Assembly: GCF_002088975.1 (NCBI RefSeq)
Contig: NZ_NCST01000068.1
Location: forward strand, 1-44,813
DNA: 44,813 nt
Direction of reading: 5' to 3'
Source of the DNA: Henriciella aquimarina
GTDB taxonomy: Bacteria; Pseudomonadota; Alphaproteobacteria; Caulobacterales; Hyphomonadaceae
Positions 1 to 44,805 of this stretch are shown here, one piece after another. The position numbers and the translations under genes were made by a program. The notes under the pieces are model-generated. The model was not told the DNA's origin, did no database searches, and was given only the letters and a program-made list of their open reading frames with translations. Each line of letters begins with the position of its first letter. The first letter of the stretch is position 1.

Positions 1-8
1 CTCATCCT

Positions 9-32
9 TGTCTGTTTGAAGTGTGCGATAGA
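9..32 (+). promoter_or_regulatory. Half of a promoter completed only in the circular IS form
   Basis: If the right end (…AGTTG), the CT core and the left end (TGTCTG…) are joined in a circle, TTGCTT is created across the junction. It lies exactly 17 nt before GATAGA at 27-32. This would be a -35/-10 pair starting transcription near 38-40, where the first bridge-RNA stem begins. In the integrated copy the -35 position reads ATCCTT, which is poor. Junction promoters of this kind are known for IS110 elements; here it is inferred, and both boxes match the consensus only partly. Confidence 0.4.
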
Positions 33-37
33 GGGGT

Positions 38-174
38 GGCAGGCGAGACCCCGTTCTCATCCTTGATTTGACGGATCGTGGCTCAGCCAGGGGCTCGCCT
101 GCCGGGTACGACAGTTGTGTCGCCTGAACAGTTGCCAGGGGCGGTGACAGCCGACCCCGTATGACAAGGACAGG
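38..174 (+). ncRNA. Candidate bridge RNA of IS110 copy 1
   Basis: Two internal-loop hairpins are visible. The first has stem 38-52/90-103 (14 bp, one bulged A at 48); its loop carries CTCATCCT (56-63), identical to the left target flank, and GCTCAG (81-86), the reverse complement of the right target CTGAGC. The second is closed by CCTG/CAGG (123-126/171-174) with an inner hairpin 138-145/150-158 (bulged A154). Its left strand holds ACAGTTGC (128-135), matching the element's right end 1094-1101, and its right strand holds GACAAG (163-168), the reverse complement of CT+TGTC at the left end. A small CGACA/TGTCG hairpin (109-122) joins them. This is the target-loop/donor-loop layout known for IS621-type bridge RNAs. 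The exact 5' and 3' ends are inferred. Confidence 0.82.
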
Positions 175-183
175 ATTTTCTTC

Positions 184-1104
184 ATGTCACACCCTGCTCT
201 CGGCGTCGATATTTCCAAGACGCATCTCGATGTCTTCGATCCGCGTGACGGCTGCTTTCACCGGCTGTCCAATGATGCGGCAGGGCTCGATACCCTCTGT
301 CTGCTGGCTCCCCCATCCATCGTCTTCGAGGCCACAGGCCCTTATGGCGAAGCGCTCGAACGGGCGATGAGCCAGGCTGGCGTGCGGATGTACCGGGTCA
401 ACCCGCGCCAGGCGCGCGAGTTTGCCCGCGCCTCTGGCGTGCTGGCCAAGACAGACCGTGTCGATGCCCGGCTCCTGTCGGCCATGGCCGGCCAGATCAG
501 CCTGCCGGTGCACGTCCCACCCGCACCCGGCGTGCAGGTCCTGCGCGAGCTTCACGCCTACCGGCATGATCTTGTTGAAGCCCGAAAAGCCTGTCTCAAC
601 CAGCTCGAACGCTATCGCTGCGGCCCGCTGGTGCGGCGGCTGAAAGCCAGGATCGCAGGCCTGACCCGACAGATCGTCACCATGGACAAGGAGATCGCGG
701 TCCATATCGAGGCCGATGACACCCTGGCTGGCCGGGCCCGCCTCATCGCCAGCGAACCGGGCGTCGGACCGGTCACAACCGCAGCCCTGCTCGCCTTCCT
801 GCCAGAGCTCGGACACCTGGCCCGAAGACCCATCGCAGCCCTTGCAGGCCTTGCTCCCCATGCCCATGAAAGCGGAAGCTTCAGGGGAAAACGCCGGGTC
901 TGGGGCGGGCGCGCAAGGGTGCGCGAAGCACTCTACCTCGCCGCCCTCTCAGCCTCGCGCCATCACCCAAGGCTCAAGCAGACCTACTGCGCCATGCGAA
1001 CCGCTGGAAAACCTCCAAAGCTCGCCCTCATCGCTATCGCCAGAAAACTCCTCACAATCCTCAACGCAAAACTCAGAAAACATGACATCCAATACAGTTG
1101 CTGA
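184..1104 (+). CDS. IS110-family transposase (RNA-guided recombinase), copy 1
   Basis: A 306-residue transposase. The N-terminal RuvC-like DEDD domain shows D9 (GVDISK), E49 (FEATG) and D91/D94 (KTDRVDA). A central coiled region follows, then the C-terminal Transposase_20 domain (EPGVGPVTTAALLAF, about 191-205) with the conserved serine in HESGSF (S230). Members of this family recombine a circular donor with a target using a structured RNA from the same element. AGGA at 172-175 is the likely ribosome-binding site and overlaps the closing stem of the second RNA loop. The reading frame has no stop inside the element: the last codon TGC straddles the right junction and the stop TGA uses T of the CT core plus GA of the host repeat. 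It appears identical to copy 2, so both are probably intact and recent. Confidence 0.95.
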   Translation: MSHPALGVDISKTHLDVFDPRDGCFHRLSNDAAGLDTLCLLAPPSIVFEATGPYGEALERAMSQAGVRMYRVNPRQAREFARASGVLAKTDRVDARLLSAMAGQISLPVHVPPAPGVQVLRELHAYRHDLVEARKACLNQLERYRCGPLVRRLKARIAGLTRQIVTMDKEIAVHIEADDTLAGRARLIASEPGVGPVTTAALLAFLPELGHLARRPIAALAGLAPHAHESGSFRGKRRVWGGRARVREALYLAALSASRHHPRLKQTYCAMRTAGKPPKLALIAIARKLLTILNAKLRKHDIQYSC

Positions 1105-1162
1105 GCGATGTCGGAGGGTGAGGCCGTTCGCGTGACGGCAAGGGTCAGGCGAGGTGGGACAT

Positions 1163-19460: not shown

Positions 19461-19494
19461 GCGCTCGTCCTTCGACTTCGCTCAGGATGAGCGC
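19461..19494. repeat. REP-type palindrome; unoccupied IS110 target
   Basis: Arms GCGCTCGTCC (19461-19470) and GGATGAGCGC (19485-19494) pair over 10 bp with one G-T, loop 14 nt. It sits between two convergent genes and could also help termination. On the minus strand it reads CTCATC-CT-GAGC, identical to the flanks that surround both IS copies, with the CT core at 19484-19485. Confidence 0.88.
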
Positions 19495-44630: not shown

Positions 44631-44805
44631 GAAGAAAATCCTGTCCTTGTCATACGGGGTCGGCTGTCACCGCCCCTGGCAACTGTTCAGGCGACACAAC
44701 TGTCGTACCCGGCAGGCGAGCCCCTGGCTGAGCCACGATCCGTCAAATCAAGGATGAGAACGGGGTCTCGCCTGCCACCCCTCTATCGCACACTTCAAAC
44801 AGACA
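43714..44805 (-). mobile_element. IS110-group insertion sequence, copy 2
   Basis: Same 1092-bp element as copy 1 in inverse orientation; every coordinate mirrors as 44814 minus that of copy 1. Flanked by AG at 43712-43713 and 44806-44807 (CT on the element's strand), i.e. the duplicated or shared core dinucleotide. Sequence compared at the ends and coding start is identical. Confidence 0.9.
44640..44776 (-). ncRNA. Candidate bridge RNA of IS110 copy 2
   Basis: Mirror of 38-174: the target guides lie at 44751-44758 (CTCATCCT on the minus strand) and 44728-44733 (GCTCAG), and the donor guides at 44679-44686 and 44646-44651. Both guides match the flanks of this insertion as well (AG core at 43712-43713, CTCATCCT at 44806-44813). 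Confidence 0.82.

Follow-up and report, generated by a model that had tools for sequence, protein, structure and literature searches.

An IS110-group insertion sequence of Henriciella aquimarina with a predicted two-loop bridge RNA in its 5' leader

The element, its copies and its target site

The window analyzed here, meaning the whole stretch of DNA under study, is one complete contig of 44,813 bp from the 132-contig assembly of Henriciella aquimarina. Its first 1,106 bases consist of one copy of an insertion sequence together with the two halves of its target, and its last 1,106 bases hold another copy in the opposite direction (Table 1). Elements of the IS110 group have a long noncoding left end that carries an RNA and a short right end, the reverse of the arrangement in the IS1111 group. 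The IS110-group layout is present in the window, with 175 nt from the start of the left end to the ATG and a coding sequence that crosses the right end and extends into the target.

The host genome contains 12 matches to the element, each at a contig end and 100% identical over 1092 bp (a weak 46-bp match on contig C128, at 81%, is left out of this count). Unique flanking sequence lies to the left of seven and to the right of five, which implies at least seven insertions, the left and right flanks of single insertions being unpairable from this assembly. In all 12 the left boundary is CTCATCCT and the right boundary CTGAGC, the target that is spelled by both guides of the predicted RNA. Since the window comprises an entire contig, whose end coincides with that of the shared target, only 8 bp precede the element, and longer left flanks were therefore taken from other copies. 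Contig ends at the limit of the shared stretch are what would be expected of a collapsed repeat, and the inverted copies that bound the contig at both ends (window 1-44813) seem to mark a repeat where the assembly broke, rather than being evidence of a composite transposon. The identical multicopy state suggests recent activity.

The encoded protein exceeds the curated cut-offs of both Pfam families PF01548 (DEDD_Tnp_IS110) and PF02371 (Transposase_20), and scores 181.5 bits against NF033542, the NCBIfam model of the IS110 RNA-guided transposase (cut-off 140). Among PDB chains, the best solved-structure sequence match is the ISCro4 recombinase (PDB 9t56; 101.5 bits over residues 6-294), a likeness at the protein level, and IS621 scores 92.9 bits. 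By motif and alignment, residues D9, E49, D91, D94 and S230 correspond to D11, E60, D102, D105 and S241, given as the catalytic residues of IS621, the serine being that of the Tnp domain (Hiraizumi 2024, PMC11208158). A protein search returned at least 7088 matches at E up to 1e-40, a lower bound because scoring was confined to the 8000 candidates with the most words in common; among the best 120 of these 7088, nine proteins besides the window's own, one of them a 213-aa fragment, are at least 63% identical.

The unoccupied site, CTCATCCTGAGC, has 12 perfect occurrences in the genome, against one for a reversed control pattern, and REP-like palindromes such as CTCATCCTGAGCGAAGTCGAAGGACGAG are found at 11 places with up to three mismatches, against none for the control. 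In the unoccupied site a single core CT separates the two halves, so that insertion duplicates nothing except the core brought by the element; site-specific insertion at the core dinucleotide, without target duplication, was found at all 12 matches. At three of the seven left flanks (insertions L002, L004 and L005) an intact REP-like repeat lies about 35 bp away in the opposite direction, a spacing that leads us to propose that the element may favor one member of a REP pair. In another genome (G677), a 39% identical element with the donor word ACAGTCG (L077-L081) is inserted at CTCATCCTGAGG, nearly the site of the window element, and different IS110 lineages may therefore use related repeats.

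Table 1. Positions of the element, its target and the parts of its predicted bridge RNA in the window.
Feature	Position	Strand	Basis
Target left half, CTCATC + core CT (7-8)	1..8	+	common to 12/12 matches
IS110-group insertion sequence, core dinucleotide excluded	9..1100	+	12 contig-end matches, 100% identity over 1092 bp; flanks diverge beyond CTCATCCT / CTGAGC
Predicted bridge RNA, putative ends	38..177	+	fold; covariation; covariance model 140.5 bits at 9-174
Target-binding loop module, 14-bp stem 38-52/90-103 (one bulged base)	38..103	+	fold, covariation
Left target guide CTCATCCT, left-flank sense	56..63	+	sequence match, shuffles, flank comparison
Right target guide GCTCAG, complement of CTGAGC 1101-1106	81..86	+	sequence match, shuffles, flank comparison
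Handshake base C, directly after right target guide; complements donor base G1100	87..87	+	scored in element set; role as described in Hiraizumi 2024 (PMC11208158)
Linker hairpin CGACA/TGTCG, between the loops	109..122	+	fold; readable in L035 too
Donor-binding loop module, closed by CCTG 123-126 / CAGG 171-174	123..174	+	fold, covariation
Left donor guide ACAGTTGC, equal to right end + core C (1094-1101)	128..135	+	sequence match, shuffles
Right donor guide GACAAG, complement of CTTGTC 7-12	163..168	+	sequence match, shuffles, flank comparison
Handshake bases GA after right donor guide; complement target TC 5-6	169..170	+	first position scored, second read from sequence
IS110 recombinase, 306 aa; D9, E49, D91, D94, S230; stop TGA = core T + target GA (1102-1104)	184..1104	+	domain, profile and PDB comparisons
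Core CT + target right half GAGC	1101..1106	+	common to 12/12 matches
Uninterrupted REP-like target CTCATCCTGAGCGAAGTCGAAGGACGAG	19464..19491	-	genome pattern search
Identical second element copy, opposite contig end	43714..44805	-	genome matches; bridge RNA model match 44640-44805

Guide words and fold of the predicted bridge RNA

An earlier note on this DNA, made from the letters, had proposed that the left end encodes a bridge RNA whose guides match both the target and the ends of the element. Every letter match that it listed was located again by script: CTCATCCT stands at 1-8 and at 56-63, and ACAGTTGC at 128-135 and at 1094-1101, the left donor guide being unpaired with the core T. The 14-bp stem and the CCTG/CAGG closure that it described are both recovered in a fold of 38-177 by itself. 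Its further claim, that the guide matches are unlikely to arise by chance, stands for the set and is weak for the two 6-mers taken alone. In dinucleotide shuffles of 29-183, with the guide words fixed beforehand from the flanks and ends, the left target guide appeared in 104, the right target guide in 5042, the left donor guide in 365 and the right donor guide in 3382 of 100,000; two or more words came together in 201 and three or more in none. An origin of these matches by chance would draw on the single 6-nt matches, which at such counts are not rare, but three of the four words never fell together and the same design recurs in most of 20 related elements, so that coincidence is the least credible of the readings that we weighed.

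The fold of 38-177 on its own consists of the target stem, the linker hairpin and the donor stem (-64.3 kcal/mol, z -2.88, with 2 of 200 shuffles as good). When the whole of 9-183 is folded, its 5' and 3' ends pair with each other, and the score is therefore unremarkable (z -1.14; 26 of 200 shuffles do as well). For a consensus by RNAalifold, 10 elements including the window were aligned, collected by protein and pattern searches in which the donor word served in choosing some relatives; a scan of genome contigs for close relatives gave one locus, L035. In this consensus 93.7% of the cells are paired and two-sided changes occur in 15 of 30 pairs, and on any of five measures none of 500 shuffles had covariation as good. 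Helix 1, the target stem, has two-sided changes in 9 of its 12 pairs; in the donor module the outer pairs are invariant and the inner helix changes on both sides in 5 of 7 pairs. Since the structure was drawn from the same alignment, slid controls alone are worth little. A conserved two-loop secondary structure is found by consensus, by covariation and by folding.

The covariance model scores 140.5 bits on the window, which is itself one of the 10 training rows. Outside the training set, it scores 89.2 bits on the leader of L073, 55.0 bits on that of L077 and 32.8 bits on that of L038. A match to a second IS110 family of the host, at 19.3 bits (E 0.006), is weak evidence, as spurious-looking antisense matches of the model reach up to 16.8 bits. 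In an Rfam scan of the window tRNA alone reached a gathering score, and the leader was without a match at that score; Rfam may or may not hold a bridge RNA family.

A sigma-70-like promoter arising at the circle junction is expected of IS621-type bridge RNAs. Across the junction of a putative circular form, two promoter-like sites (ATGACA-17 bp-TCTGTT and TTGCTT-17 bp-GATAGA) score 8.5 and 7, compared with 7.5 for the best in the integrated form; by this simple score neither junction site stands out. The 3' strand of the donor closing stem, CAGG (171-174), overlaps a likely Shine-Dalgarno sequence, AGGA (172-175), and the transcript may therefore either fold as bridge RNA or serve to translate the recombinase, but not both at once.

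Guides, flanks and ends among relatives

Across 20 IS110 elements, the left guide matches its own flank with a sum of 148, against a permuted mean of 88.2, and the right guide with a sum of 118, against 78.4; neither sum was reached in 20,000 permutations. The set holds one copy per element, with further copies and L087 (truncated left end) left out, and the permutation covers the target loops and ignores kinship (L084 and L086 are related, and the left target word is the same in the window, L035 and L077). For the relatives, element boundaries were placed by eye, not blindly, with conserved end words as landmarks. As contigs break within the element, some rows combine left and right flanks of different copies, namely the window (left from L005, right from the window), the second family (left L060, right L072) and L092 (right from L097). 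The second family, L051 and, on its right side, L091 are represented by better-fitting copies, and the test was repeated with copies swapped: substituting other copies for five elements gave 141 and 115, against 87.1 and 78.4, and leaving out L084 and L037 also (18 elements) gave 124 and 107, against 78.6 and 71.0, each with 0 of 20,000 permutations.

The same holds within the 10 elements that share the CCTGAACAGTTG donor loop (12 rows less L045 and L047, further copies of L041 and L043), where the own sum of 131 (permuted mean 89.4) was reached in none of 20,000 permutations; with the guides taken singly, 0 permutations reached the left and 60 the right. Poor fits are seen for the left guides of L038 (5 nt), L074 (4) and L075 (3), and for the right guides of L086 and L084 (3 nt). 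The donor side was judged by word agreement, and in three donor types (CAGTTG, CAGTCG and CGGATA) the words in the donor loop correspond to the ends of the element. The earlier note had named these two comparisons in related elements, of target loops with flanks and of donor loops with ends, as checks on its reading, and both bear it out. Its claim of an RNA-guided recombinase whose specificity is legible from the sequence is supported, the target loops of the 20 elements fitting their own flanks, some of them weakly.

A second IS110 element in the host genome, with a 39% identical protein, has 14 matches, seven with left and seven with right flanks (L059-L072). Its left guide, CCTGCGCT, has an exact flank in four of the seven left-flank copies, and its right guide, TGGGAAG, has the exact complement CTTCCCA in four of the seven right-flank copies, the rest being mismatched or shifted. 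Single insertions of this family carry mismatches, as at the left flank CCTACGCT. The ends of this second element agree with its donor words, CGGATAC and GACAAG.

These comparisons bear on two further explanations of the leader. The target loop could merely carry a piece of captured REP DNA, with no guiding role, given that the left target guide equals a REP-arm word and that REP-like repeats recur in the genome. Against this, the right guide is opposite in sense and lies 17 nt away, the donor loop matches the ends of the element itself and not REP, the same kind of match is seen in elements with other flanks, and the letters of the stems change while pairing is kept; we consider such a capture very unlikely. 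Alternatively, the recombinase alone could read the site, with the leader RNA only regulating its expression. The donor closing strand over the likely Shine-Dalgarno sequence could indeed allow the leader to regulate translation, and small RNAs that modulate recombinase expression have been invoked for ISPpu9, as cited in Durrant 2024 (PMC11208160). However, the letters of right flank and right guide change together, both across the 20 elements and between the window and L035 (73% identical protein), where guide CCTCAG faces flank CTGAGG instead of GCTCAG facing CTGAGC, a one-letter change in step, and targeting was programmed by RNA in published IS621 experiments (PMC11208160). Specificity residing in the protein alone is, in our judgment, even less probable than captured REP DNA.

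In IS621, position 7 of the donor is reported to pair with the base that follows the right target guide, and position 7 of the target with the base that follows the right donor guide (Hiraizumi 2024, PMC11208158). Both of these handshakes hold in the window, C87 with G1100 and G169 with C6. In the element set, the first pairing is seen in 15 of the 18 elements scored (20 tried, two unscored), with C:G and T:A pairs, and the second in 18 of 20, with G:C, C:G and A:T pairs; as the letters shift in step between element groups, this is more than conservation. The first position fails in L037, L098 and L073 and the second in L037 and L077. We believe that the misses of L037, L073 and L077 arise where the script picked the wrong occurrence of a short word, and the raw counts are kept.

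Proposed mechanism, borrowed stop codon and variant cores

We conclude with high confidence that the window carries an IS110-group insertion sequence whose 5' leader encodes a two-loop bridge RNA, working by the mechanism published for IS621. The sequence matches, the covarying stems, the target loops that follow their flanks, the agreeing donor words, the handshake positions, the recombinase family and the catalytic residues form the observed basis of this reading. By analogy with the published work on IS621, the leader would be transcribed and would form an RNA-protein complex, and the DNA pairing, the circular intermediate and the chemistry would be as in that system. The element would be excised to a circle, with the bridge RNA made from the left end. 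Its target loop (56-63 and 81-86) would pair with the target, and the second loop (128-135 and 163-168) likewise with the joined circle ends ACAGTTG-CT-TGTC. The recombinase would hold the target and the joined ends together and exchange strands at the CT core, and insertion would therefore be scarless, without target duplication.

The IS621-type design of a target loop and a donor loop with a CT core, which the earlier note had given as known, is what the window has, both loops matching site and ends. IS621 of Escherichia coli (Durrant 2024, PMC11208160; Hiraizumi 2024, PMC11208158) likewise has a leader RNA with the target loop before the donor loop, left guides in the sense of the left half and right guides complementary to the right half with the CT core included, a REP target, handshake positions, and a DEDD plus serine recombinase. 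The ends of the left and right target guides are 22 nt apart in IS621, by the numbering of the paper, and 23 nt apart here. In both, the left donor guide has 8 nt and ends on the core C, and it is likewise unpaired with the core T in IS621, as we take the published numbering. In contrast to IS621, the window element has other target and donor words and a stop codon completed by the target, and its right donor guide is a contiguous 6 nt, whereas that of IS621 is split. A 5' stem-loop, conserved among orthologues according to the published account, is absent from the consensus of the 10 elements, which has no pairs before the target stem in columns 1-32, the left end ahead of that stem being at most 29 nt long. 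Deletion of this stem-loop in IS621 decreased RNA binding and reduced recombination in E. coli only slightly (PMC11208158), and its absence is therefore not decisive for membership.

The seekRNA of ISEc21, an element of IS110 type (Siddiquee 2024, PMC11187229), is also a guide RNA encoded in the upstream noncoding region, with a bottom-strand match before a top-strand match and no target duplication. Its target is a site within IS3-family transposase genes, not REP as here, and no donor loop is described in the parts of PMC11187229 covered. Given the good fit to the published bridge-RNA mechanism, the element is a well-supported further member of the IS110 bridge-RNA elements, ordinary in mechanism and cleanly readable.

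The end of the recombinase gene lies across the insertion boundary. The final codon, TGC, spans the right end and the core (1099-1104 region), and the stop TGA needs the GA of the target; L035 has the same arrangement. The C-terminus SC of the window protein recurs in seven of the eight next closest full-length proteins among the matches listed (63-89% identical, P0002-P0009), which suggests the same borrowed stop in these seven. In the circular form, the open reading frame of the window element would gain LSV before a stop. For the window and L035 the borrowed stop is a fact of the sequence, and its functional importance is speculation. A literature search, with most subscription journals outside its reach, turned up no mention of target-completed stop codons in IS110; the term "stop codon" has 0 occurrences in PMC11208160, PMC11187229 and PMC11208158, and "termination codon" appears in PMC11187229 and PMC11208158 in one unrelated legend only.

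Five relatives have a CC core instead of CT: L037 (genome G331), L073 (G622), L091 (G262), L092 (G010) and L098 (G221). Unoccupied sites were searched for L098 and L092. The site of L098 occurs in its own genome at 15 exact and 12 one-mismatch places, against none for the control, and comparing its left flank GGGTCCC and right flank CCCCGG with GGGTCCCCCGG yields a core of two bases, CC; for L092 the search gave two one-mismatch sites only. In a FastTree phylogeny of 20 proteins, L073, L091, L097 (the protein of the genome of L092) and L098 fall together with support 0.969, and L037 is placed elsewhere with low support. The Gly of the EATG motif is kept in the proteins of L073, L091, L097 and L098 and not in that of L037. 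The term CC core is absent from PMC11208160, the one text searched for it. The CC-core relatives leave the class of the window element unchanged.

These features allow a more far-reaching reading, which we put forward as doubtful: in the window element and its nearest relatives, RNA-directed target choice might be coupled to where the recombinase gene ends, with TGA completed only when the right guide picks a site that begins CT-GA, and this, together with the lack of a 5' stem-loop and the CC-core relatives, might mark a distinct sub-type of bridge recombinase. If this were true, the recombinase would be extended at another site or in the circle.

The second T of the core is described as almost invariant (Hiraizumi 2024, PMC11208158); the CC-core relatives bear on this point and could widen the known range of cores. 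The host genome carries a pair of IS110 elements that differ in target and each have readable guides, and this pair together with the 20 elements of known flanks forms a ready natural test set for bridge-RNA rules, namely guide length, mismatch tolerance, handshake bases and core choice. The compact recombinase, of 306 aa, may also interest those who build tools for genome insertion.
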